Shown here one piece after another: positions 16,282 through 43,189 of a DNA stretch of 64,000 nt. Source of the stretch: Agrobacterium tumefaciens (lineage in GTDB: Bacteria > Pseudomonadota > Alphaproteobacteria > Rhizobiales > Rhizobiaceae). The first letter of the stretch is position 1. Each line of letters starts with the position of its first letter. The DNA is taken from the NCBI RefSeq assembly GCF_013318015.2, contig NZ_CP115842.1:1356001-1420000 (forward strand). The letters are read 5' to 3'. A model generated the notes under the pieces. It was not told the origin of the DNA and made no database searches. It saw only the letters and a list, made by a program, of their open reading frames with translations. Made by a program: the position numbers and the translations under genes.

Positions 16282-16359
16282 TGAATGTTGAGTTTGTATG
16301 GAACCAGATTGCCCCCAATTCCATTTCACGCAAAGTGACAGGAATCGGGGGTTTCATTC

Positions 16360-18696
16360 ATGGCAGTCACCGTTACTGCGGTTATTCTATCGCTGATCGG
16401 CCTTGCGCTGTTCGGTTTCGGCTCTCAGCTCGTCATGTTGGGCGGGAGCTTCTATTACGTCCTTTCCGGTATGGCCTTCCTGTTGACAGCCATTCTGCTG
16501 TTCAAGCGTAACCGGGCAGCTCTCCACGTCTATGCCGTCTTCATTGTCGCGACACTCGCCTGGGCCCTCTGGGAAGTGGGTTTCGACTGGTGGCAGCTTG
16601 GGCCGCGGGGTGGCATAGTCATTCTTATCGGCTTGTGGTTGCTGGTGCCCTGGGTCAGGAAGCCTCTCGGTTTTTCAAGCCCGACAGGGCTGAATTACGG
16701 CCCGAATGCCTGGCCACTCGCGCTATCGGTTCTCGCCTCCATTGTGGTGGCGGGATATTCGATGGCGCAGGATCCGCATGACCAGGCAGGGTCCTTGTCT
16801 GAGGAGAAGGTGGCGTCCGCTCCGATCTATGGCGGCGACGTACCGGATGGCGATTGGCATCAATACGGCCGCACGCCTTATGGCCAGCGCTATTCGCCGC
16901 TGACGCAGGTCAATGTCGATAATGTTTCGCAGCTGAAGGAAGCGTGGCGGTACCAGACAGGCGACGTGAAGCTACCGGATGATGTGGGTGAAACCACCTA
17001 TCAGGTAACGCCGCTCAAGATCGGCAATACGCTTTATATCTGCACGCCGCACAATTGGGCGATCGCCATCGATGCCGCCACCGGCAAGGAAAAGTGGAAA
17101 TACGACCCCAATGTCGGTCTTAACCCGGACCGCCAGCACCAGACGTGCCGCGGTGTTTCCTATTATGCCGAACCCAATGCCGCACAGGGCACCGCCTGCG
17201 CCCAGCGCGTTTACCTGCCGACCTCGGATGCGCGGCTGATTGCGCTTGATGCAGCGACCGGTCAGATCTGCACATCCTTTGCGGATCAGGGCGTGCTGCA
17301 TCTGGAACAGGGCATGAAATACAATCCTGCCGGTTATTATTATTCGACCTCGCCGCCCGTGATCGCGGCGGGCAAGATCATCATCGGCGGTGCGGTGAAC
17401 GATAACTACTCCACGCAGGAACAGTCCGGCGTCATCCGTGCGTTCGATGTGAACAGCGGCGCACTCATCTGGAACTGGGATTCCGGCAATCCGGAAAAGA
17501 CCGAGCCGATTGCCGCAGGCGAAACCTACACTACCAACTCGCCGAACAGCTGGTCCGTGTTGAGCTACGACGAGGGGCTTGGCCTCGTTTACGTACCCCT
17601 CGGCAATCAGGTGCCGGACCAGCTCGGTATGGGTCGCAGCGAGAATGTGGAGAAATATTCCTCCTCCATCGTGGCGCTCGATATCAATACCGGCAAGGAT
17701 CGCTGGGTGCGCCAGACGGTTCATCACGACCTCTGGGATATGGATGTGCCGGCCCAGCCGGTGCTGCTCGACATCACCAAGAACGGTCAAAGCGTTCCCG
17801 CACTCGTGGGCCCTACAAAGCAGGGCGATATCTACGTTCTGGACCGGCGCACGGGTGAGCCGCTTCTGCCGATTACGGAAGAACCGGCACCGGGCGGTAC
17901 AATCCCTGAGGACTTCAGCTCCCCGACTCAGCCAACGACGGCGCTGTCGTTCAAGCCGGAGCCGCTGAAGGAAAAGGACATGTGGGGCGTCTCCATGTTC
18001 GATCAGCTCGCCTGCCGCATCCGCTTCCATCAGCTGAACTATCAGGGCCGCTATACGCCGCCCTCGCTGAACGGCTCCATCATCTATCCCGGCAATTTTG
18101 GCACGTTCAACTGGGGCAGCGTCGCGGTCGATCCCGAACGTCAGGTCATGTTCGGCATGCCGACATACCTTGCCTTTACCTCGCAGCTCGTGCCGCGCGC
18201 CGACATCCCGCCGAAGGGCCAGGACGAGAAGGGCAGTGAGCAGGGGCTGAACCGCAATGACGGTGCGCCCTATGGCGTCTTCATGGGACCGTTCCTCGGT
18301 CCGCTGAAAATCCCCTGCCAGGCACCTCCGTGGGGTTATGTCGCTGGTGCCGACCTGCGCACCGGCGATATCGCATACAAGCACAAGAACGGCACGGTCC
18401 ATGACATGACGCCGCTGCCGTTGCCCTTCAAGGTGGGCGTACCGGGCATTGGCGGGCCGATGATTACCAAGGGTGGCGTGGCCTTCCTCGGTGCTGCCGT
18501 CGACAACTATCTGCGCGCCTACAACCTCACCACCGGCAAACAGCTCTGGGAAGCACGTCTGCCGGCTGGCGGGCAGGCAACGCCCATGACCTATGCGCTG
18601 GATGGCGGCAAGCAATATGTTGTGATGGTTGCGGGTGGTCACGGCTCGGTTGGAACCAAGCCGGGCGACTATGTGATCGCCTATACCCTGCCGTAA
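16360..18696 (+). CDS. gcd: Membrane-bound PQQ-dependent glucose dehydrogenase (glucose/quinate/shikimate family)
   Basis: The 778-aa protein has about five N-terminal membrane segments in the first 140 residues and then a periplasmic PQQ beta-propeller domain beginning DGDWHQYGRTPYGQRYSPLTQVN. Typical propeller signatures follow (PLKIGNTLYICTPHNWAIAIDAATGKEKWKYD and the C-terminal GGKQYVVMVAGGHG). Length matches the Gcd family of about 780-800 aa. It oxidises aldoses such as glucose to the lactone in the periplasm and donates electrons to ubiquinone. Quinate/shikimate dehydrogenases share the architecture, so the exact substrate is inferred. It needs PQQ; no pqq genes are in this window. It is followed by a bidirectional terminator. 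Confidence 0.92.
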   Translation: MAVTVTAVILSLIGLALFGFGSQLVMLGGSFYYVLSGMAFLLTAILLFKRNRAALHVYAVFIVATLAWALWEVGFDWWQLGPRGGIVILIGLWLLVPWVRKPLGFSSPTGLNYGPNAWPLALSVLASIVVAGYSMAQDPHDQAGSLSEEKVASAPIYGGDVPDGDWHQYGRTPYGQRYSPLTQVNVDNVSQLKEAWRYQTGDVKLPDDVGETTYQVTPLKIGNTLYICTPHNWAIAIDAATGKEKWKYDPNVGLNPDRQHQTCRGVSYYAEPNAAQGTACAQRVYLPTSDARLIALDAATGQICTSFADQGVLHLEQGMKYNPAGYYYSTSPPVIAAGKIIIGGAVNDNYSTQEQSGVIRAFDVNSGALIWNWDSGNPEKTEPIAAGETYTTNSPNSWSVLSYDEGLGLVYVPLGNQVPDQLGMGRSENVEKYSSSIVALDINTGKDRWVRQTVHHDLWDMDVPAQPVLLDITKNGQSVPALVGPTKQGDIYVLDRRTGEPLLPITEEPAPGGTIPEDFSSPTQPTTALSFKPEPLKEKDMWGVSMFDQLACRIRFHQLNYQGRYTPPSLNGSIIYPGNFGTFNWGSVAVDPERQVMFGMPTYLAFTSQLVPRADIPPKGQDEKGSEQGLNRNDGAPYGVFMGPFLGPLKIPCQAPPWGYVAGADLRTGDIAYKHKNGTVHDMTPLPLPFKVGVPGIGGPMITKGGVAFLGAAVDNYLRAYNLTTGKQLWEARLPAGGQATPMTYALDGGKQYVVMVAGGHGSVGTKPGDYVIAYTLP

Positions 18697-18721
18697 AACG
18701 AGGCGGATTCAATCAAACAAA

Positions 18722-18753
18722 AAAAACCGGAATGGATGACCATTCCGGTTTTT
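18722..18753. terminator. Bidirectional rho-independent terminator between gcd and DUF892 gene
   Basis: The arms AAAAACCGGAATGG and CCATTCCGGTTTTT pair perfectly around ATGA, with A-run and T-run flanks that serve both strands. It lies 26 nt after gcd and 24 nt before the end of the convergent gene. Confidence 0.85.
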
Positions 18754-18776
18754 GCTTGTGCAGTTGGAAAAGGCGA

Positions 18777-19277
18777 TCAGGCCGCCTTTTTCTGTGCTGC
18801 GGCATTGATCGATGTCTTGGCAAGCGCGCTCAGCGCATCGTCTGTCTTGGACTCTTCCTTCAGCGTCGCATCCAGCAGGGTAACGGCATTGGCATGACCA
18901 AGCTTTTCGGCCCATGCCTTCAGGGTGCCATAACGGGCGATTTCGTAATGTTCGACCGCCTGAGCCGAGGAAATGAGACCGGCATCGAGAGCTGCGGTGC
19001 CCTTGAAATCGTCCATAATCTCTTCGCCCTCGGCAATGATGCCCTGGATAGCTTCGCAGGTCTTACCCTGCGCCCGCTTGCCGATGATCTCGAACACTTC
19101 CTGCAGGCGTTCGATCTGGCCCTGCGTTTCTTCCTTGTGCTTTTCGAAGGCCTGTTTCAGCTTCGGGTCTGTCGCTGCCCGCGCCATTTTCGGCAGAGCT
19201 TTAAGGATCTGCCTTTCGGCGTAATAGATATCCTTCAGCGTATCGTAAAACAGGTCGTCGAGTTTTTTCTCGGCCAT
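18777..19277 (-). CDS. Ferritin-like domain protein, DUF892 (YciE/YciF family)
   Basis: The 166-aa all-helical protein begins KLDDLFYDTLKDIYYAERQI, the DUF892 signature, with further helices containing EKHKEETQGQIERL and AVEHYEIARYGTLKAWAE that carry the Glu/His residues expected for a di-metal four-helix bundle. The family is induced by stress in many bacteria; its reaction is not established. The start at 19277 has GGGAGAAG upstream; a 14-residue longer frame is less likely. A near-match to the EcfG promoter lies upstream at 19335-19359, which fits a stress role. Confidence 0.88.
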   Translation of the reverse strand: MAEKKLDDLFYDTLKDIYYAERQILKALPKMARAATDPKLKQAFEKHKEETQGQIERLQEVFEIIGKRAQGKTCEAIQGIIAEGEEIMDDFKGTAALDAGLISSAQAVEHYEIARYGTLKAWAEKLGHANAVTLLDATLKEESKTDDALSALAKTSINAAAQKKAA

Positions 19278-19334
19278 TGGTTCTTCTCCCATGGTGTGAA
19301 AGTGCGTGATGTACGCCATTGCGCACGGGAGACA

Positions 19335-19359
19335 AACCTTTCGAAGCCCCTATGGTTCC
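19335..19359 (-). promoter_or_regulatory. Possible EcfG promoter (one mismatch) for the DUF892 gene
   Basis: On the minus strand GGAAC (19359-19355) is followed after 16 nt by GGTT (19338-19335), one base from the CGTT consensus. It is about 60 nt before the start codon. Confidence 0.4.
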
Positions 19360-19426
19360 GGCTCTGTTGCGCGCAACGTTTTATATTCCAGCAGAAGCTC
19401 CGCCGCGTATAGGATGACGAGCGGCA

Positions 19427-20653
19427 TCAGTCGAAACGGAAGAGATCGGCGTCGGGGTCCTTGCCACCATTAACGGCGGCGGCGACTATCTCGGCGGCGA
19501 TCTGGCTGAAGGTGATGCCGTTGCCGCCAAAGCCCATGACGGCATAAACGTTCTTCATGCCGGGAACCGCGCCGATCAGCGGCAGGCCCGTGGTGGTCGT
19601 GCCGAAGCCGGCCGCCCAGCGATATTCGGGTTCGCCGATGTCGACGCCAAGAAGCTTTTCGATCTTGCGTTTGATTGCATCCGCCTTGGAGGCAAGCTTG
19701 CTCTCAGACAGGTAGGATGTGGAGTTCTCTTCATCCTCACCACCGGCAATAAGGCGCTCATCCCGGTCGGTGCGCAGGTAGAGATAGGGATCTGAAGCCT
19801 CCCAGAGGATGTGGCTATTCAGCCAGTCCGGCAGATCGATACCCTTCGCACTCGCCAGCGCCCAGGTGGAGATGATCTGGTGTTTCGGGCTTTCGAGCGA
19901 TTTCAGGAACTCGTATCCGGTGCAGAAAACGATATTGCGCGCGGAAATGATTTTGCCGTGTGCTGTGGCGACGACCACCTCGTCACCGAGATTTCGAAGA
20001 TCGGTGATTTCAAGTTGTGAAACGATCTCCGCGCCGGCGCCTGCTGTGTGGCGCAACAGGCCCGCCGTCAGCTGCGCCGGATTGGCGGAAGCGGAGATAT
20101 CGCTGAGGATCGCCCCTGTCCGCTCAATCGCATAGTCGTTTTTAAGTTTTGCGGTGTCGAGAAAGCGGGCTTCGATCCCGGCCTCTTCGCGCGCTGCCGC
20201 TTCGGCCTTCAATGCACGCAAACCCATCTCGTCTCCGGCAAGATAAAGCGCCTGTTTGCGCGCCATGCTGCAGGAAATGCCAAGCGAAGAAACGATTTCC
20301 TCCAGCCGCAACACGGCGCGCGCGGAGCGCTGCCACGCCCGATCAGCAGCATCCTTGCCGATCATCTTTCTGAGCTCGATAAGGGGTGTGTCGATCTCGT
20401 GCTGTATCATCGCAGTGCTGGCGACACTGCTGCCCATCACCGGATCACGCCGGTCGACGATCAGCATGGATTGCCCCGGTCTCTGCAACGCATGGGCGGC
20501 AAGCGCGCCGCTGATGCCGGCGCCGACGACGATCGTATCGTAATGGTCGGAACTCGGGGTGTTCCTGGTGCGGAGGCCTATGCGTGGCGTGTCGGCCCAA
20601 AGGGGTTTCGATTCCCTGAGGTCGCGTTCCTTCGTCAGTTCCGATGTGGGCAT
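19427..20653 (-). CDS. FAD-dependent oxidoreductase, DAO family
   Basis: The 408-aa protein has an N-terminal dinucleotide-binding motif YDTIVVGAGISGALAAHAL at about residues 38-56, then IVDRRDPVMGSSVASTAMI where the Ser/Thr-rich stretch follows the FAD ribose site. The C-terminal GFGGNGITFSQIAAEIVAAA closes the FAD domain. The family oxidises secondary amines or amino acids (glycine, sarcosine and relatives); the substrate is unknown. The start at 20653 is preceded by AGGA. It is a separate unit from the DJ-1 gene upstream, with a hairpin in the gap (20739-20774). Confidence 0.85.
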   Translation of the reverse strand: MPTSELTKERDLRESKPLWADTPRIGLRTRNTPSSDHYDTIVVGAGISGALAAHALQRPGQSMLIVDRRDPVMGSSVASTAMIQHEIDTPLIELRKMIGKDAADRAWQRSARAVLRLEEIVSSLGISCSMARKQALYLAGDEMGLRALKAEAAAREEAGIEARFLDTAKLKNDYAIERTGAILSDISASANPAQLTAGLLRHTAGAGAEIVSQLEITDLRNLGDEVVVATAHGKIISARNIVFCTGYEFLKSLESPKHQIISTWALASAKGIDLPDWLNSHILWEASDPYLYLRTDRDERLIAGGEDEENSTSYLSESKLASKADAIKRKIEKLLGVDIGEPEYRWAAGFGTTTTGLPLIGAVPGMKNVYAVMGFGGNGITFSQIAAEIVAAAVNGGKDPDADLFRFD

Positions 20654-20738
20654 GGAGTTTTCCTGAAAGGTGCAGGGCATTTACGGTGGAAATGCCTGGC
20701 GGGTTACGTCTGGAAAATGCGAACAAACAAAGACAGAG

Positions 20739-20774
20739 AGCGCATCCGGCCATTTTGGATAGGCCGGATGCGCT
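20739..20774. terminator. Hairpin terminator candidate after the DJ-1 gene
   Basis: Thirteen-base perfect arms AGCGCATCCGGCC / GGCCGGATGCGCT surround a 10-nt loop. A seven-T run follows on the plus strand (about 20779-20785) and a T-rich stretch follows on the minus strand. It is placed to stop transcription leaving the DJ-1 gene. Confidence 0.6.
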
Positions 20775-20799
20775 CTGGTTTTTTTCCGCTTTACTGCCC

Positions 20800-21360
20800 T
20801 TAGGCAGCGCGGCGCTCGTGGTTGCCTTCTTCGACCTCCTCGATGATTTTGGCGACGAAGGCGTCCAGATCATCGGGGCTGCGAGACGTGATGATGCCCT
20901 TATCGGTCACAACCTTTTCGTCCTTCCAGTTGGCGCCGGCATTTTTCAGGTCGGTTTTGATCGACCAATATGAGGTCGCGTCGCGACCGCGCAGGGCATC
21001 AGCTTCAACCAGAAGCCAAGGGGCATGGCAGATGGCAGCCACGACCTTGCCGGATTTGACGAAATCGCGCACCACGCGCATTGCATCCTCGTCGTGACGC
21101 AATACGTCGGGATTGATCTGGCCGCCGGGCATGACGAGTGCATCGAAATCATTGGCGCTTACGTTCTTCGCGGAAATATCGACGGCGATGCTGTCACCCC
21201 AGTTCTTTTCGTCCCAGCTCTTGATCTCACCATCCTTGATCGAGGCGATCTTGACGTCCGCGCCCTTGGCCTTCAGCTGATCATAGGGCACGCGCAGTTC
21301 CGAACGCTCATAGCCGTCCGTTGCGAGAATGACGATTTTTGCAGTGTTGATGGCAGTCAT
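20800..21360 (-). CDS. DJ-1/PfpI family protein (type 1 glutamine amidotransferase-like; protease I/glyoxalase III-like)
   Basis: The 186-aa protein has the PfpI fold markers: KIVILATDGYERSEL near the N-terminus with conserved E18, MPGGQINPD and the nucleophile elbow AAICHAPW with C111-H112. The family includes the YhbO/PfpI general stress proteins and glyoxalase-type enzymes that act on damaged or glycated molecules. It lies 17 nt downstream of a 75-aa gene on the same strand and is probably co-transcribed from the EcfG-type promoter at 21762-21786. The assignment is firm; the biochemical activity is not. Confidence 0.9.
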   Translation of the reverse strand: MTAINTAKIVILATDGYERSELRVPYDQLKAKGADVKIASIKDGEIKSWDEKNWGDSIAVDISAKNVSANDFDALVMPGGQINPDVLRHDEDAMRVVRDFVKSGKVVAAICHAPWLLVEADALRGRDATSYWSIKTDLKNAGANWKDEKVVTDKGIITSRSPDDLDAFVAKIIEEVEEGNHERRAA

Positions 21361-21377: not shown

Positions 21378-21605
21378 TTATCTGTTTTCGTCTTTGTCCG
21401 AATTCACGGAGGGCAGAAAAAACTCCACATCCTCACGGCGCTCCGGATCGAGCTTTTCGATATTCGTTTGCCAGAAGGTCTCGGCTTCTGCCGGTTCGTC
21501 TTCCCATTGGCGCACGAAGGTCTTGTTGTCGTCGATCATGACCTGACGGGTGCCGCCGAGCCGCAGATATTCTTCTGCAAGTTTACGCGTTTCGGTCTTT
21601 TCCAT
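21378..21605 (-). CDS. Small conserved-looking acidic protein, hypothetical
   Basis: The 75-aa product is highly charged, with MEKTETRKLAEEYLRLGG at the start, an ETFWQTNIEKL segment and an acidic tail. It has no signal peptide or membrane segment. AAGGAA precedes the ATG at 21605 at good spacing; a longer in-frame start at 21725 would add a low-quality arginine/proline stretch and is unlikely. It precedes the DJ-1 gene by 17 nt, so the two probably form a stress-induced operon. I recognise no functional family. Confidence 0.7.
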   Translation of the reverse strand: MEKTETRKLAEEYLRLGGTRQVMIDDNKTFVRQWEDEPAEAETFWQTNIEKLDPERREDVEFFLPSVNSDKDENR

Positions 21606-21761
21606 GTCGCGGTTCCTTGTGCGTGGAAAGCGGGGACGGAGGGCGCCGGATGGGTAAGAAGCTCGGCTGCCATTTCGTTGGCCACCGGGAGAAAACGGAA
21701 AAATCCCGATGTTCTTCAGCGCCATCGTGTCCGTTTGACACGGCGGCTCTCCTGCCAGAAC

Positions 21762-21786
21762 AACGTGAGCTTTCCGGTATGGTTCC
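21762..21786 (-). promoter_or_regulatory. EcfG-type stress promoter for the 75-aa/DJ-1 operon
   Basis: On the minus strand GGAAC (21786-21782) is followed after exactly 16 nt by CGTT (21765-21762), a full match to the alphaproteobacterial EcfG consensus. Transcription would start near 21755, leaving a leader of about 150 nt before the start at 21605. Confidence 0.7.
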
Positions 21787-21842: not shown

Positions 21843-21868
21843 GGAACAAACCGGCAAGTCGTGCTGTT
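21843..21868 (+). promoter_or_regulatory. Possible EcfG promoter (one mismatch) for the QEGLA cassette
   Basis: GGAAC (21843-21847), 17 nt, then TGTT (21865-21868), one base off CGTT. It lies 25 nt before the first gene of the three-gene cassette, back to back with the perfect site on the other strand. Confidence 0.45.
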
Positions 21869-21893: not shown

Positions 21894-22724
21894 ATGACAG
21901 CCAGACACAGTGACGGCGAGTATCGCGGCAACGACGAAAACAAGGGTTTCTGGTCGATCGACTTCGGCAATTCACCGATCATCGGCACGGCCATTCATGA
22001 TGGTCATCTCATTCGTCCGGACATAGCCTCGCTGATGGCTCTTTCCGCCGACCAGCGGCTGAGAGAGGAAGACCCTTTTACCGGCGAGATGATCGCGGGG
22101 ATGACAAACCGCATTGTCGTTCACCATTCGCGTTTCGAAATCGATCTCAACCGGTCCGCCGATCAGGCAGTTTATCTGAAGCCGGAACAATCCTGGGGGC
22201 TGGAGGTCTGGAAACAGGAGCCGCCGGAAGAGGCCACCCGGCAATCGCTCGATTTTCATGCCGACTATTACGCAATGCTCGAAGCAGTTGTTTCAACCGT
22301 CGAGCGGCGGCATGGTGCTTTTGTCGTGCTGGACATACACAGCTACAATCATCGCCGGCAGGGCGCTACAGCGCCGCCAACGCCACAGGCGGAAGCGCCT
22401 GATATCAATATCGGCACATTTTCCATGGATCGCAGCCGCTGGAGTGACGTCGTCAGTGCGGTGGGCCATCATTTCGCGACAGCCACCATCGGCGGACGCC
22501 GCCTTGATGTACGCGAGAACGTCGCCTTTCAGGGCAAGGGTGAGCAGACCCGGTTTATTCACGAGCGTTTTGCGCAGAACGGCTGCGCCATCGCAGTGGA
22601 GTTCAAGAAATTCTTCATGGACGAGTGGACCGGTAAGCCGGATAAGCGCGTTGTTTCCGATATTGGCGACGCTATCACCGCACTTCAGCCGGTACTCGAA
22701 GAGTGCCTGAGGGCGCGGCGATGA
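21894..22724 (+). CDS. N-formylglutamate amidohydrolase-like protein (FGase family)
   Basis: The 276-aa protein shows the FGase pattern: SRFEIDLNR at residues 79-87, DFHADYYAML at about 120-129 and VVLDIHSYNHRR at about 145-155 with D147 and H149, residues of the kind that bind zinc in this amidohydrolase clan. Classic members deformylate N-formylglutamate in histidine breakdown, but no hut genes are nearby. GGGGAGG precedes the ATG at 21894. The stop overlaps the next start (ATGA). It is the first gene of the cassette with a QEGLA/DUF1704 metallopeptidase-like protein and an ATP-grasp ligase, so its substrate is probably a small acylated or peptide-like glutamate compound. That is inference. 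Confidence 0.8.
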   Translation: MTARHSDGEYRGNDENKGFWSIDFGNSPIIGTAIHDGHLIRPDIASLMALSADQRLREEDPFTGEMIAGMTNRIVVHHSRFEIDLNRSADQAVYLKPEQSWGLEVWKQEPPEEATRQSLDFHADYYAMLEAVVSTVERRHGAFVVLDIHSYNHRRQGATAPPTPQAEAPDINIGTFSMDRSRWSDVVSAVGHHFATATIGGRRLDVRENVAFQGKGEQTRFIHERFAQNGCAIAVEFKKFFMDEWTGKPDKRVVSDIGDAITALQPVLEECLRARR

Positions 22725-24598
22725 ACGTCTCCTCGGCGCGTAGTGAACCGTTACCGGTTATCGAGCTGGTAGACGATGTCGTCGCCTGCCTTGAGGCCGG
22801 CAAAGCCGTCCGTCGTGATGTCGGAAAGAACGGCCGGCTGCATATCGACCGGCCGCTGCCGTTTCTTTGCCTGCATCTGACCGGTGGCTCGAAGGACCTT
22901 GCGGCCCGCGATATCGCCTCTGCGCATGCATCTTATCTGATCGCATCGAGCATTCAGGAGGCTGCACCCCTGATTGCAGCCGTCGGCATGGCCATGCGCG
23001 AACGTTTCGGCGCCTTCATGGTTCTCGATATCGGCGAACTGGAACACGACATTCTGCTCGCTGACGATTCACCTTTCCTGCCGCATTATGAGGTTTCCGT
23101 CTCTGCAACATCTGAGCCGGAAACGCAAAGTGCCCGCCGTGTTTTCATCAAGGCGGTTTGTGATGCCGAAGTGCGTTTCCGCACGCCCCGCATAACCCGG
23201 CCCGAACCGGATGCCGATCCGATCCTCAGATTTCAAAATGCCGGGCTTGATTTTCCCTGCATCAGCGTGCGTTTCGCGCCGATCTACCGACAGCCTGAAT
23301 CCGGCGCCGATTATCCCGGCCTGCGCGAGACGATGATTGCGGATATTTTCGATGCCGGCCTTCAGGCCTTCTCGTCATTCGCTGCCGGTAAAGACGCACT
23401 CAAGGTTACCAGCCATCGCGCGCTCGGCCGCAAGGCCTTCGTTGATGCCGTCAGACGCGCCGATCGCTCAATAGACGACATCGTCTCGTCCTTTGATTTT
23501 CTTCTGTCCGTGACGCCGATCAATGCCCGCCGGGCCTTCGAGGAATTTCGCGATGGCAGCTTCCAATATGCGCCGCGCCTGCTTTACCGGCCGCTCGGCG
23601 TTGACGTCGAGGAGCAGAAACGCAAGCTCTATTCCGTCGTTTTCGATCATCTGGAAGACCCGGTGCTCTATCATCTCTACCGGGAGAAACAGCAGGAGAT
23701 CGATCTGCAACTGACCATGCTCGCCAATCTGCATCGCCGTACTTTCACCGATTTCTCCCGCGCCCTTTACGGTGCCGTCGAACCCACGCTTCTGACGCTG
23801 GCGCTCAAGGTGCTTGCCGATTGCCCACGCAAGGATGAGAGCGGCGAAATCGCCATGGTCGATTGTTATGCGGTCGCCAAAAAATCGCGCGAGATGATCG
23901 AGACCTATCTGGCGGAGGAGCCGGAATTCAAGGCGCGTGTCGAGATCAGGGATGACCTGCCGCCTGGCCTGATGGTGACGGGCGAGAAGCTCCTGATTTC
24001 TCGCCACACCGTCATGGAACAGCGCCGGGTCGAAGCGCTGCTGTCGCATGAGATCGGCGTGCATCTCCTCACTTATTTCAATGGGTCGTTTCAGGGCCTC
24101 CGGCTCTTCCGCACCGGCCTTTCCGGTTACGAAGGCGTGCAGGAAGGGCTGGCAGTGCTGGCAGAACATCTGGCCGGCGGCATGACGCGCGAGCGCCTGC
24201 GGCTGATCGCCGGCCGTGTCGTCGGCTGCGCCGCCATGCTGGACGGCGCGACTTTTGTTGAGACGTTCCGGACTATGACCCGCGATCATGGTTTCGACGA
24301 GGCTGGCGCCTTCAACATGGTTTTGCGCATCTATCGTGGCGGCGGTCTTTCCAAGGACGCGATCTATCTGCGTGGGCTTGCGGAGGTGCTGGAGCATCTG
24401 CGCAAGGGTGGCGCGCTCGATCCGTTCTGGATGGGCAAGATCGCCGCTGCCCATTTCCCGGTGATGCAGGAGCTTGCCTTGCGCGGCCTCTTGCGTCCGC
24501 CGGGCGTACGTCCCGCTTTTCTGCTGCCGGCCAAGGCCAATGAGCGGCTGGAAAAGATACGGGCCGGATTATCCATCGCCGAACTGGCGACATTGTAA
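22721..24598 (+). CDS. QEGLA-motif protein (DUF1704, MATCAP-like HExxxH metallocarboxypeptidase homologue)
   Basis: The 625-aa protein contains SHEIGVHLLTYFNG, an HExxxH motif with H443, E444 and H448, and the family-naming QEGLA at 474-478. E475 is placed to be the third zinc ligand. Bacterial members are annotated as flavohemoglobin expression-modulating QEGLA proteins. The domain (DUF1704) is shared with the eukaryotic tubulin tyrosine carboxypeptidase MATCAP. A zinc-dependent C-terminal peptidase activity is therefore a reasonable expectation, with an unknown substrate. The N-terminal 250 residues look like a separate domain. The ATG at 22721 overlaps the stop of the FGase-like gene by four bases; the ATP-grasp gene starts 17 nt after its end. 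Confidence 0.85.
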   Translation: MNVSSARSEPLPVIELVDDVVACLEAGKAVRRDVGKNGRLHIDRPLPFLCLHLTGGSKDLAARDIASAHASYLIASSIQEAAPLIAAVGMAMRERFGAFMVLDIGELEHDILLADDSPFLPHYEVSVSATSEPETQSARRVFIKAVCDAEVRFRTPRITRPEPDADPILRFQNAGLDFPCISVRFAPIYRQPESGADYPGLRETMIADIFDAGLQAFSSFAAGKDALKVTSHRALGRKAFVDAVRRADRSIDDIVSSFDFLLSVTPINARRAFEEFRDGSFQYAPRLLYRPLGVDVEEQKRKLYSVVFDHLEDPVLYHLYREKQQEIDLQLTMLANLHRRTFTDFSRALYGAVEPTLLTLALKVLADCPRKDESGEIAMVDCYAVAKKSREMIETYLAEEPEFKARVEIRDDLPPGLMVTGEKLLISRHTVMEQRRVEALLSHEIGVHLLTYFNGSFQGLRLFRTGLSGYEGVQEGLAVLAEHLAGGMTRERLRLIAGRVVGCAAMLDGATFVETFRTMTRDHGFDEAGAFNMVLRIYRGGGLSKDAIYLRGLAEVLEHLRKGGALDPFWMGKIAAAHFPVMQELALRGLLRPPGVRPAFLLPAKANERLEKIRAGLSIAELATL

Positions 24599-24615
24599 TA
24601 TTACAGGAGGGGCTT

Positions 24616-25662
24616 ATGCGTATCGCATTTTTCGTCAATTCCATCGAAACCGAGGGGCCTACTTTCGCAACCGGCCTGCTGGCCATGGCGGCGCTCAATC
24701 GCGGTCACGAGGTGGTGTATCTGACGCCTGGCGATTTTACCTTGCGCTCGGATGATAGCCTGACCGTACACGCCACCGTTCTACCGAAGGCCAAATACAA
24801 GAAAGCCGATGCTTTTCACGCGGCACTTCAGGACAAAGCACTGGAACGGCGTACCATGGATGTAGAGGAAATCGACGCGCTGATGCTGCGCAACGATCCC
24901 TCGCTGGATCAGACGACGCGGCCATGGGCGGTGCATGCCGGCATTCTGTTCGGGCGGCTGGCAGAACAGCGCGGCGTTGTGGTTCTGAACGACCCGGAAG
25001 GATTGGCGCTGGCGCAGAACAAGCTCTATTTCCAGAGCTTTCCGGAAATCGTACGCCCGACCACGATCATCTCGCGCAATGTCGATGAAATACGCGCATT
25101 TGCGGATACCCACCCTAAGGGTGTCATCGTCAAGCCGCTGCAGGGTTCAGGCGGCAAGAACGTCTTCAAGATCGGCTCCAGCAAGGAGGCCAATCTCAAC
25201 CAGATTTTCGAGGCGGTCAGTCTCGAAGGTTACTTGATTGCACAGGCCTATCTGCCGGCCGCCAAGGATGGCGATATTCGGTTCTTCATGATGAATGGCA
25301 AGCCTCTGATGCGCGACGGACAATATGCGGCTTTGCGCCGCGTTCCGGCAAAAGGCGATCTGCGCTCCAACATTCACGCCAAGGGCACTGCCGAGGCCGT
25401 GAAGGTGACGGATGAGATCGTGGCGCTTGCCGAAATGATGCGGCCCAAGCTGGTGGAAGACGGTATGTTCCTGGTCGGGCTTGATATTGTCGGCGACAAG
25501 ATACTGGAAGTGAACGTGTTTTCGCCCGGCGGTCTCTCCAACATTCGCGACCTCACCGATGTCGATTTCAGCGATACGATCATCGAAGCCGTGGAAACCA
25601 AGATCGCCATGCAGAGCGCTTCCGGCGGCATGCTTTCCAATCGTCTGCTGGCGACGCTTTGA
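24616..25662 (+). CDS. ATP-grasp ligase, glutathione synthetase-like
   Basis: The 348-aa protein opens MRIAFFVNSIETEGPTFAT, as in prokaryotic glutathione synthetases. It has the ATP-grasp loop VKPLQGSGGKNVF (173-184), the strand GDIRFFMMNGKPL (219-231) and the metal-binding end LEVNVFSPGG with E298 and N300. The family joins an amino group to an acyl-phosphate made with ATP. It is probably a paralogue acting on another substrate rather than the housekeeping GshB, since it sits in a cassette with two metallohydrolase-like proteins and has no gshA nearby. AGGAGG precedes the ATG. It ends one base before the convergent epimerase gene. Confidence 0.85.
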   Translation: MRIAFFVNSIETEGPTFATGLLAMAALNRGHEVVYLTPGDFTLRSDDSLTVHATVLPKAKYKKADAFHAALQDKALERRTMDVEEIDALMLRNDPSLDQTTRPWAVHAGILFGRLAEQRGVVVLNDPEGLALAQNKLYFQSFPEIVRPTTIISRNVDEIRAFADTHPKGVIVKPLQGSGGKNVFKIGSSKEANLNQIFEAVSLEGYLIAQAYLPAAKDGDIRFFMMNGKPLMRDGQYAALRRVPAKGDLRSNIHAKGTAEAVKVTDEIVALAEMMRPKLVEDGMFLVGLDIVGDKILEVNVFSPGGLSNIRDLTDVDFSDTIIEAVETKIAMQSASGGMLSNRLLATL

Positions 25663-40399: not shown

Positions 40400-40969
40400 T
40401 CAGCGCGCGGTGGCTGCGGCGGTAACGGCGCTCATCTGCGCGTCAGGACCGAACTCGTTTTCGTTTTCGATGCCGAGAAGTTCCTGCAGGCGCAATCGCG
40501 CGCGGCTGACACGGCTCTTGATCGTGCCAACCGGGCAACCGCAAATCTCGGCTGCTTCTTCGTAAGCAAAGCCGGAGGCGCCAATCAGCAATATCGCTTC
40601 GCGCTGATCGTCGGGCAATTTTGCAAGTGCCGTACGAAAATCCTGAAGATCGACCGAACCATGCTGCTCTGGCGGCACAGACAGGCGCGAGGTATAAACC
40701 CCGTCGGTATCCTGTACTTCGCGGCCGGACTTGCGAATCTGGCTGTAGAATTCGTTACGCAGGATCGTCACCAGCCATGCGCGCATGTTGGTGCCAGGCT
40801 GGAAACTCTCCTGTTTCGCCCAGGCCTTCATGATCGTATCCTGCACGAGGTCGTCAGCGCGATCCCTCGAACGGATGAGTGAGATCGCGAATGCGCGCAG
40901 GTTTGGCAGTGCCGCCAGCATTTCCCGTTTGAAATTGTATTCTGTCTGCTCCGGCTCTTTCGCCATCAT
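40400..40969 (-). CDS. ecfG: ECF sigma factor of the general stress response, EcfG
   Basis: The 189-aa sigma factor has region 2 (NLRAFAISLIRSRDRADDLVQDTIMKAWAKQESF and MRAWLVTILRNEFYSQIRK) and region 4 (LAKLPDDQREAILLIGASGFAYEEAAEICGCPVGTIKSRVSRARLRL), plus a short C-terminal tail. Sequence and context with nepR and phyR identify it as EcfG, which directs RNA polymerase to GGAAC-N16/17-CGTT promoters. Its start overlaps the nepR stop (ATGA), so the sigma and its anti-sigma are translationally coupled. A second ATG directly follows the first. Confidence 0.95.
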   Translation of the reverse strand: MMAKEPEQTEYNFKREMLAALPNLRAFAISLIRSRDRADDLVQDTIMKAWAKQESFQPGTNMRAWLVTILRNEFYSQIRKSGREVQDTDGVYTSRLSVPPEQHGSVDLQDFRTALAKLPDDQREAILLIGASGFAYEEAAEICGCPVGTIKSRVSRARLRLQELLGIENENEFGPDAQMSAVTAAATAR

Positions 40970-41172
40970 TCCCCCGAAGCCTTGTCTTTGGCTCTGTTTT
41001 CGGCTTCATCGAGTTTCTCGAGAAGATCGAGGAATTTGTCAGGGATGCCTTCTTCCTGAACAGCATCGTAGAGTTCCCTGAGCTTGCGGGAAATCACCGC
41101 ACGTCCAGAGTGCGGGACCTGAGGGTTGGCCGGATTGTCCGGAGAATCTTGGTCCGATTGAAATATGTTCAT
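40966..41172 (-). CDS. nepR: Anti-sigma factor NepR
   Basis: The 68-aa protein has the NepR core ISRKLRELYDAVQEEGIPDKFLDLLEKLDEAE, two amphipathic helices that clamp EcfG, with a disordered N-terminus. It lies between phyR and ecfG in the standard alphaproteobacterial order. When PhyR is phosphorylated its sigma-like domain binds NepR and frees EcfG. The stop overlaps the ecfG start by four bases. A near-consensus EcfG promoter precedes it, which implies positive feedback. Confidence 0.93.
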   Translation of the reverse strand: MNIFQSDQDSPDNPANPQVPHSGRAVISRKLRELYDAVQEEGIPDKFLDLLEKLDEAENRAKDKASGE

Positions 41173-41224
41173 AACGTCCGGTATTCCTTTTGTGTCGTGG
41201 CAAGAATGCGCGATGAAAAAAATA

Positions 41225-41263
41225 GTTCCGGCGATCCGGAACTTTTTTTATGATGCGCACGTT
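41225..41263. promoter_or_regulatory. Back-to-back EcfG promoters between nepR and phyR
   Basis: For phyR, GGAAC (41238-41242) is followed after 17 nt by CGTT (41260-41263), a perfect match. For nepR on the minus strand, GGAAC (41229-41225) is followed after 16 nt by CATT (about 41208-41205), one mismatch. The two -35 elements form a perfect palindrome GTTCCGG-CGAT-CCGGAAC at 41225-41242. The start codons lie 47 nt downstream for phyR and about 33 nt downstream for nepR. Confidence 0.75.
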
Positions 41264-41309
41264 GCTATCGTGGGTTTGCGTTGCAGACCGCATGAAAGGG
41301 GAGAATTCC

Positions 41310-42104
41310 ATGTCAGTTTCTACACGCATCGCACCGCACCTGCCATATCTGCGCAGGTTCGCGCGTGCCGTTTGCGGCTCTCAATCCACTGGCGATGCCT
41401 ATGTTGCAGCAACACTTGAAGCTCTGATCGCCGATATCAGCATCTTCCCGCCGACAAGCAACGATCGGGTTTCGCTTTATCAATTGTTCGTATCGATTTT
41501 TAGTTCCGTCACGATCAATATAAAGGCCGATGAAAACCTGTCAGGTTGGGAAAAGCGCGCTTCCGCCAACCTCTCTGCGGTACCAGCGCTCGCCCGCCAG
41601 GCTTTCCTTCTGACCACGGTCGAAGAGTTCACAGCGTCGGAAGCAGCAGAGGTTCTGAGGGTAACTGAAGCCCAGATCGGCCAGCTGATCGATGAGGCGG
41701 CCTCTGAAATCGCCCGCCAGGTTGCCACCGATATCATGATTATTGAGGACGAACCTCTGATCGCCATGGATATCGAGCAGATGGTCACCGATCTCGGCCA
41801 TCGCGTTACGGGTATTGCCCGCACGCATGCGGAGGCGATCGATCTCTTCAACCGCACGCAGCCGAAGATGATCCTTGCCGACATCCAGCTTGCAGACGGC
41901 AGCTCCGGGCTCGATGCCATGAAGGAGATCCTTCAGATGACGTCTCTGCCGGTGATCTTCATTACAGCCTTCCCTGAGCGTCTTTTGACGGGTGAGCGGC
42001 CCGAGCCGACATTCCTCGTTACGAAGCCGTTCAACCCGGACATGGTGAAAGCGCTTATCAGCCAGGCGCTGTTTTTCAACGAAAGCTCTCGCGTCGCGGC
42101 GTGA
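41310..42104 (+). CDS. phyR: Response regulator PhyR (sigma-mimic general stress anti-anti-sigma factor)
   Basis: The 264-aa protein has an N-terminal domain resembling an ECF sigma factor (PHLPYLRRFARAVCGSQSTGDAYVAATLEAL; a degenerate sigma4 with ASEAAEVLRVTEAQIGQLI) and a C-terminal receiver starting TDIMIIEDEPLIAMDIEQM with the phospho-acceptor D191 in MILADIQLADG and the late KPF. Phosphorylated PhyR sequesters NepR. GGGGAG precedes the ATG at 41310. It is divergent from nepR-ecfG and followed by a cytoplasmic HWE kinase, its likely phosphodonor or modulator. Confidence 0.95.
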   Translation: MSVSTRIAPHLPYLRRFARAVCGSQSTGDAYVAATLEALIADISIFPPTSNDRVSLYQLFVSIFSSVTINIKADENLSGWEKRASANLSAVPALARQAFLLTTVEEFTASEAAEVLRVTEAQIGQLIDEAASEIARQVATDIMIIEDEPLIAMDIEQMVTDLGHRVTGIARTHAEAIDLFNRTQPKMILADIQLADGSSGLDAMKEILQMTSLPVIFITAFPERLLTGERPEPTFLVTKPFNPDMVKALISQALFFNESSRVAA

Positions 42105-42130
42105 AATTTGCCGAAACCGTAGACTGTCCG

Positions 42131-42155
42131 GGAACAACTACGGTACCCGGACGTT
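42131..42155 (+). promoter_or_regulatory. EcfG-type promoter for the cytoplasmic HWE kinase gene
   Basis: GGAAC (42131-42135), 16 nt, then CGTT (42152-42155), a full consensus match. It is 45 nt before the kinase start, so the kinase gene is probably autoinduced with the general stress response. Confidence 0.72.
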
Positions 42156-42199
42156 CGCGGTTACGGTCGTGAGGTGATCTCACGGCTTTTTGCAGGGAG

Positions 42200-43189
42200 A
42201 TGAATTTGCATCGGCTGGCATGGCATAACGCGGAGAGGAACGAGAGCGAGCTACACGATTCGCTCGTCCTCGCTTTGCTCGATTCGGGCGAGACAGTCAT
42301 GTTACAAGACTGGAACCGCGAGTATATATTCGTGGCCAATCTGCCGGATGTGTGGCGTCTGCCGACCGATAGCCATCCTACGGATGAAAATGTGTTTGGC
42401 ACCGATCTTTCAGAGCGGCTTGCCGAACTCAAAAAAGATATGAATGTGGTGGGCAGTCGGGGCATGCTGGAAGTTAATGCCGGCAATGACCGGGTTTTCC
42501 AGTTCCAGATCCATTCCACCTTCAACCAGGCGAAGCAGGCGGTGATGAAAACCACCATTCGCGAGGTGACGGCGGAACGGCGGCGCGAGCAGCTTTTGCG
42601 CTCGCTGCTGCGCGAGGTCAGCCACCGTTCCAAGAACCTCCTGGCGATCATCCAGAGCCTTGCGGGCCAGACGGCCCGTTTCAGCCTCACCAAGGATGAT
42701 TTTCTGCGCAAGTTTCGGGGGCGGTTACACGCTCTTGCCCAAAGTCAGGATCTCATCACGGATTCCGACTGGAGAGGTGCTCGCATATTCGAGCTTCTTC
42801 GCCAGCAATTCGATCTTTATGTGCCGGAATATCCTAATCTCATCCACATGGAAGGTGAAAACCTGCTGCTCAATCCGAATGGGGCGCTTTATATCGGTCT
42901 GGCTTTCCATGAGCTGGTCGTCAATACGGTCAGCCATAGCGGCAATCTCGCCTATCATCCGCCAATCTCGCTGCAATGCCGACAGGAAGGCGATTTTTGT
43001 ATCGTTGAGTGGATAGAGCCGATCATGCCATCGAAAGAGCCGGCGCAGGCGAGGCGCGGCAGTTTCGGCAGCGTCGTGCTGGAAAAGGTCGTTCCATCCG
43101 CATTGGGCGGGAGTGCCGAATATCACCTCACGCCGGAGCGGATCGTCTACCGGCTTAAATTTCCTTCCGGGGACGTCACCGACATTTGA
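42200..43189 (+). CDS. Cytoplasmic sensor histidine kinase, HWE/HisKA_2 family
   Basis: The 329-aa protein has no membrane segment. Residues about 20-125 look like a PAS-type sensor (ETVMLQDWNREYIFVANLP). The dimerisation/phosphorylation helix LLREVSHRSKNLLAIIQSLAGQ carries H142, and the N box is AFHELVVNTVSHSG. The late GSVVLEKVVPSALGG is the ATP-lid region. It sits directly after phyR with a perfect EcfG promoter, so it probably feeds the PhyR pathway. The ATG touches its GGGAG ribosome site, which is unusually close; a TTG two codons later (42206) would have ideal spacing and may be the true start. Confidence 0.88.
   Translation: MNLHRLAWHNAERNESELHDSLVLALLDSGETVMLQDWNREYIFVANLPDVWRLPTDSHPTDENVFGTDLSERLAELKKDMNVVGSRGMLEVNAGNDRVFQFQIHSTFNQAKQAVMKTTIREVTAERRREQLLRSLLREVSHRSKNLLAIIQSLAGQTARFSLTKDDFLRKFRGRLHALAQSQDLITDSDWRGARIFELLRQQFDLYVPEYPNLIHMEGENLLLNPNGALYIGLAFHELVVNTVSHSGNLAYHPPISLQCRQEGDFCIVEWIEPIMPSKEPAQARRGSFGSVVLEKVVPSALGGSAEYHLTPERIVYRLKFPSGDVTDI

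Follow-up and report, generated by a model that had tools for sequence, protein, structure and literature searches.

Three described protein families are the closest points of reference for the genes considered here: MATCAP/TMCP1 (KIAA0895L), a human tubulin carboxypeptidase; the N-formylglutamate amidohydrolase (FGase) family (PF05013; structure 2q7s); and the glutathione synthetase GshB of E. coli (1gsa). Relatives of all three are encoded side by side in a 64,000-nucleotide stretch of Agrobacterium tumefaciens DNA (contig NZ_CP115842.1, positions 1,356,001 to 1,420,000; hereafter the window), in a cassette made up of an FGase-like gene (FG), a MATCAP gene and an ATP-grasp ligase gene. Compared with human MATCAP, the cassette differs by an extra FGase-type domain and by the linked ligase and FGase genes. 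FG departs from the amidohydrolase family in not being HutG by the curated cut-off and in being linked or fused to MATCAP. The ligase shares the GSH-S_N and GSH-S_ATP Pfam domains with E. coli GshB and can be aligned with it over most of its length; however, it forms a separate subfamily (PRK12458) and coexists with another GshB-family gene. From the comparisons below, the cassette is a real, widespread and poorly named enzyme system.

All three genes lie on the plus strand. FG (21894..22724) encodes an FGase-like amidohydrolase of 276 aa with an M14-like fold and conserved H35, H149 and E236. The MATCAP/QEGLA protein (22721..24598, 625 aa) begins at an ATG that overlaps the FG stop, the two genes sharing the 4 nt ATGA at 22721-22724, and is followed after a gap of 17 nt (24599-24615) by a GshB-like ligase of the PRK12458/NF009110 subfamily (24616..25662, 348 aa). 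An EcfG/RpoE2-type promoter-like site, GGAAC-N19-TT (which is also GGAAC-N17-TGTT), precedes FG at 21843..21868 on the plus strand. The coordinates, overlap and gap given in a preliminary description of the locus were all reproduced on rechecking, and its family calls (FGase-like, MATCAP/QEGLA, ATP-grasp) are backed by scores above the Pfam cut-offs. FG scored 97.9 bits against PF05013 (cut-off 28.9), with the FGase fold also matched; the middle protein scored 322.5 bits against PF08014 (cut-off 27) and 451.9 against TIGR02421 (cut-off 338.65); and the ligase scored 186.6 bits against GSH-S_ATP (cut-off 23) and 490.4 against NF009110/PRK12458 (cut-off 408). Against the HutG equivalog TIGR02017, FG reached 28.6, below the cut-off of 278.75, and on this score the HutG histidine route was dropped. 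Four other FGase-family genes are present elsewhere in the host genome, which is about 6.0 Mb in size.

The metal site of the MATCAP protein, HEIGVH ... QE, spans codons 443-475 (24047..24145, plus strand), and H443, E444, H448 and E475 (numbered from the ATG start) are invariant in an alignment of 41 rows. The HEIGVH and QEGLA motifs align with HEIGTH and EEGLA of 7z5g, and the modelled MATCAP domain (residues ~261-622) matches human MATCAP, with the metal-binding motifs aligned in sequence. The HExxxH plus QEGLA motif and the DUF1704/MATCAP match that were first noticed in the sequence are thus borne out by invariant residues, profiles and predicted fold. The fold match and the aligned motifs also speak, indirectly, against the second refuting condition of the preliminary description, a predicted structure with E475 far from the two His. 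Ahead of this domain, residues ~35-224 (22823..23392, plus strand) form a second, degenerate FGase domain. Both histidines are absent from this domain in the split-type proteins (0 of 47 keep them), and a glutamate aligns at E236 in eight of the 47, the alignment being unsure there. This hidden domain is new here.

In a sample of 297 genomes of the Rhizobiaceae, the family of the window, a MATCAP match was found in 32. The order FG-MATCAP-ligase is present in all 32 of them (the window, 30 full loci and the contig fragment L045). The preliminary description had proposed a three-gene unit and had allowed that the idea would fail if the genes did not co-occur in other genomes; they do so in every MATCAP-bearing genome sampled in the family, and the conserved order, overlap and shared upstream site across the family loci speak for the unit. 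All 31 family loci share the overlap of the FG stop with the MATCAP start (NTGA), which none of the four other split loci counted has. Besides the trio, no open reading frame (ORF) family (at least 90 aa, within 6 kb) was common to more than 10 of the 38 'long' loci; therefore the unit occupies many different neighbourhoods, one of which is S. meliloti pSymB. Matching plasmid records numbered 127, of which 79 were from Sinorhizobium, and the two that were examined were from Rhizobiaceae. The surveys of locus neighbourhoods revealed neither a conserved target gene nor another conserved pathway gene beside the cassette. A small peptide substrate gene within the cassette was sought among small ORFs (20-150 aa) adjoining the unit and rejected as a candidate; the only cluster covering more than four loci (18 loci) lies on the minus strand and was read as antisense to FG.

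Beyond the family, MATCAP was found in 47 of 398 genomes of the phylum and NF009110 above its cut-off in 14 of them, with 16 copies in total. Fifteen of these copies, that of the window included, adjoin a long or fused MATCAP gene, and the sixteenth starts at base 48 of its contig. Split-type loci were defined by a profile score above 400 and number 50 with those from a class-level search. The ligase lies just downstream in 49 of the 50 and the full order is found within 500 nt in 43, two more having FG 1.4-2.0 kb upstream. No FG was present in the stretch examined at L077, L078, L263 and L273, the last three of which lie at contig ends, and L072 has neither an FG nor a ligase partner. Tandem ligase genes, two each, adjoin the MATCAP gene at L260 and L273.

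In the fused architecture, FGase and MATCAP make up one protein of about 660 residues. The 89 fused loci comprise 80 from a contig scan and two smaller sets of six and three. The 80 are the best of 575 confirmed stretches, and hence an uneven sample of the query's nearest relatives, many of them on draft or metagenome contigs whose taxon label may be wrong; the labels include Vibrio, Shewanella, Photobacterium, Colwellia, Pseudoalteromonas, Bacteroidales, Flavobacteriales, Nitrospirota and Desulfofustis, among others. Two pairs of fused proteins are duplicates (L069 and L207; L239 and L258). The ligase is directly upstream in 82 of the 89 loci and in 74 of the 80 from the contig scan, in most of which it overlaps the fused gene by ~10-25 nt as measured from the first possible start codon. 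A search of a protein database returned 1006 relatives at E <= 1e-20 of 7996 scored, and both Pfam domains were found in 120 of 120 relatives among the matches listed. In a third group of MATCAP proteins, mostly 390-480 residues long, none of 28 loci has an FG nearby or a cassette-type ligase, a weak ligase-like gene being found ~5 kb away in L112. Three MATCAPs of 393 residues (L062, L066, L067), which lack the FGase domain, group within the fused clade in a tree of 89 thinned rows; a ligase above the cut-off was not found in their genomes.

The fused loci also provide a view of how the parts depend on one another. FGase residues H149 and E236, scored in the numbering of the window FG, are presumably catalytic, judging from their conservation and the fold. 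Both are kept in 81 of 82 fused proteins with an adjacent ligase and in none of the seven without one (79 of 80 and 0 of 7 when repeats are removed), while the MATCAP motif is intact in all 89. Since the rows are related, the Fisher p of 1.2e-9 for this association is descriptive only. The ligase-less loci are labelled Vibrio (L175, L202), Shewanella (L179, L201), Thiomicrorhabdus (L236) and Desulfofustis (L242), together with L259; a search of the seven genomes found no ligase above the cut-off in any, and one was present in both control genomes. On a tree of 92 rows, the ligase-less label (10 rows) requires six changes, five of which are forced by well-supported branches; this tree and that of the 89 thinned rows are midpoint rooted, and long branches leave some placements unsure. 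Because the FGase site is lost without the ligase and the MATCAP motif is always intact, ligase and FGase appear to act as a pair and MATCAP appears able to act alone. On a plain reading, the FGase would be useful only where the ligase is present and MATCAP would have a use of its own. The co-loss is compatible both with antagonists and with successive steps in a single pathway, and cannot discriminate between them.

The ligase falls below the cut-offs of both glutathione synthase equivalogs, TIGR01380 (200.6 against 299.05) and PRK05246 (220.5 against 272), and below that of the RimK alpha-L-glutamate ligase model TIGR00768 (79.2 against 143.4). Among solved structures the closest to it in sequence is E. 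coli GshB (1gsa, E 9.7e-40), and the alignment shows that the ligase keeps the arginines at GshB positions 210, 225 and 233, which we take to be catalytic. A second GshB-family gene on another contig of the host has the higher domain score (247.8 bits, compared with 188.6 for the cassette ligase); 90 of 312 aligned residues are identical between the two (28.8%), and 44 cassette ligases depart from 10 GshB sequences at several N-terminal positions that are conserved among the latter. For these reasons the cassette ligase is not the housekeeping GshB but a paralogue, probably with its own job. Housekeeping glutathione synthesis was dropped as a candidate role, another GshB-family gene being present elsewhere in the genome.

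As for regulation, the form GGAAC-N18/19-TT of the RpoE2 consensus, picked once the alignments had first been viewed and a strict search had been tried, occurs upstream of FG in all 31 family loci with upstream DNA. The same form is found in 258 of 7200 random stretches and 5 of 36 antisense controls. When 1024 pentamers were tried in the same frame, GGAAC came first (31) and the next non-overlapping pentamer reached six. The window contains 12 strict EcfG-type sites compared with 2.1 expected. It also contains a general-stress regulator locus (40400-43189) composed of ecfG (40400-40969, minus strand), nepR (40966-41172, minus strand), phyR (about 41313-42104, plus strand) and an HWE histidine kinase gene (42200-43189, plus strand), with GGAAC-type sites between nepR and phyR.

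A further link to stress comes from Photobacterium damselae RM-71. In a published transcriptome (PMC10308900), A0J47_RS17020 is up 38.42-fold and RS17025 up 27.51-fold at 1% versus 3% NaCl; the former reads as 'glutathione synthase GshB' and the consecutive RS17025 as a QEGLA protein. P. damselae ATCC 33539 carries the ligase and the fused gene as a pair at L228, and another of its genes, at a different place, scores like a true GshB. Because ATCC 33539 has both, its gene order indicates that the induced 'GshB' of RM-71 is very probably the cassette ligase. In V. vulnificus, the consecutive genes VV2_1203 and VV2_1204 are listed as COG3930 and 'glutathione synthetase' in another report (PMC3091676).

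On balance, we lean towards the cassette being a conserved, stress-linked module in which ligase and FGase work on one molecule, MATCAP trims, and expression in the Rhizobiaceae is driven by EcfG. The GshB-like ATP-grasp ligase would activate a carboxylate and join an amino acid to it. That molecule would also be the substrate of the FGase-type amidohydrolase, in the simplest case through hydrolysis of the amide made by the ligase, so that the two together would set the level of the conjugate. The MATCAP domain would be a metallocarboxypeptidase trimming the C-terminal side, with a role that persists once the other two are lost, and the Rhizobiaceae operon is probably under the general-stress sigma factor EcfG. 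The computed support consists of gene linkage, predicted folds, metal-site residues, the co-loss of ligase and FGase site and a conserved promoter-like site; we infer the catalytic activities, the shared substrate and the order of the steps. As a guess, the transferred group might be glutamate or another acidic amino acid, with a glutamyl amide the best candidate for the substrate. Two suggestions of the preliminary description are supported by these data: its stress link through promoter matches now has the site in 31 of 31 family loci, the regulator locus in the window and the Photobacterium induction beside it, and its view of ligase plus hydrolases as a system is supported, with the co-loss tying the ligase to the FGase and not to the carboxypeptidase.

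Several observations weigh against this module. The R. etli promoter form is GGAAC-N16-CGTT (PMC3892343). The window site, with TGTT and N17, departs from this strict form, its -10 element being one base off CGTT. Strict GGAAC-N15-18-CGTT precedes FG in few family loci, as scattered matches; the loose form is mildly enriched over the whole window (23 versus 13.7 expected); and GGAAC-N18/19-TT is absent from all four split loci tested outside the family. The general-stress literature searched, as far as the available portions of those papers go, showed no expression data for the operon in Rhizobiaceae, and low salt in Photobacterium need not be an EcfG stimulus. With respect to the co-loss, completeness is stated for one of the seven ligase-less genomes, some being draft or metagenome assemblies, and L065 retains its ligase despite a mutated FGase site. 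Finally, the co-loss fits equally well a sequential pathway in which the FGase prepares the substrate of the ligase.

Such a pathway could be one of salvage: glutamate or a glutamyl peptide would lose its N-acyl group to the FGase, and the amine or acid so freed would be used by the ligase. The family and fold of the FGase are in keeping with this, and the co-loss is accounted for as well as by antagonists; with FG so far under the HutG equivalog cut-off and no other conserved pathway gene seen in the neighbourhood surveys, it is rather improbable. A role in glutathione metabolism, with an auxiliary glutathione synthetase and hydrolases that recycle glutathione or its conjugates under stress, would suit the GshB resemblance and the three kept arginines. 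It seems quite unlikely given the scores under both equivalog cut-offs, the better-scoring second GshB-family gene, its 28.8% identity to the ligase and the differing N-terminal positions. Chance clustering of three unrelated housekeeping genes is refuted by the conservation counts, since order, overlap, fusion, co-loss and the shared upstream site are all conserved, and can be regarded as highly improbable.

The idea of the preliminary description, in its strong form, is a protein-tail cycle: the C-terminus of a bacterial protein would receive an amino acid from the ligase and lose it again through MATCAP and FGase, as in tubulin tyrosination and detyrosination or RimK glutamylation of ribosomal protein S6. 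Human relatives of MATCAP strip C-terminal tubulin residues, glutamate included (PMC10499314), and the ligase has a weak RimK-family similarity, which lies below the cut-off for that family. At L236 (2197-4617), genes for a PF05618 protein, a RimK and an AstE/AspA-type hydrolase are found upstream of the fused FGase-MATCAP gene, where the usual ligase is absent; FGase E236 is lost there, and the RimK gene scores 478.7 bits against the S6--L-glutamate ligase model (cut-off 331). An ATP-grasp ligase is thus again beside an amidohydrolase, at this one locus. As L236 is single and no conserved target gene was seen beside the cassette, the protein-tail cycle is unlikely. A bolder proposal is a widespread, stress-switched conjugation-deconjugation system: a dedicated ATP-grasp ligase would attach an amino acid, perhaps glutamate, to the tail of a protein or peptide, and a bifunctional FGase-MATCAP would detach it. 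This is likewise doubtful; if true, it would be the bacterial counterpart, and possibly the ancestral setting, of the animal tubulin tail cycle served by MATCAP.

Anti-phage defence and a phage origin were considered and rejected. PADLOC assigned zero anti-phage defence families to the three proteins, and only one of 50,697 phage records matched, covering 57% of the query at 25% identity. That record is Pseudomonas phage Y1 (OQ572403.1:63530-64708), which contains a MATCAP-like stretch.

The surroundings of the cassette contain other genes preceded by promoter-like sites. A 76-aa protein with no Pfam match (21378-21608, minus strand) has a strict EcfG-type site upstream (21762-21786, minus strand), and similar small ORFs occur upstream of FG in L083, L084 and L099. 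A PQQ-type dehydrogenase gene (16360-18696, plus strand) has a GGAAC-type site just upstream (16300-16325). Genes for a DUF892 protein, an FAD-dependent oxidoreductase (DAO) and a DJ-1/PfpI protein lie on the minus strand beside the cassette (within 16360-21360), and a GGAAC-type site (19334-19359) is found just upstream of the DUF892 gene. In 40 of the 80 contig-scan loci (L173-L252), a small gene family immediately precedes the ligase gene or, at ligase-less loci, the fused gene; it is DUF413 in the three members scanned, which we take to be MaoP. A family of LysR-type regulators is found near 45 of the 80.

No published account of the trio turned up in the literature searched, in which candidates were judged mostly by entry and not by full text. 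The component families are known; the same searches brought up no description of the system, of the hidden FGase domain or of the way in which ligase and FGase site are lost together. With the cassette, a tubulin carboxypeptidase discovered recently has bacterial relatives with a concrete gene context and an enzyme pairing, and genes of a class named 'glutathione synthase' are part of the cassette system, very probably including the one called GshB in the Photobacterium transcriptome. The 'flavohemoglobin expression-modulating protein' likewise becomes an enzyme module that can be tested in Sinorhizobium meliloti and other model rhizobia. Among known systems, Iyer et al. are said to have described, in 2009, amidoligase-peptidase gene neighbourhoods as predicted peptide-modification pathways, which like the cassette bring ligases and peptidases together. 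The RimK glutamylation clusters also place an ATP-grasp ligase beside an AstE/AspA-type hydrolase, and one such cluster lies upstream of the L236 fused protein; their ligase and hydrolase families differ from those of the cassette.

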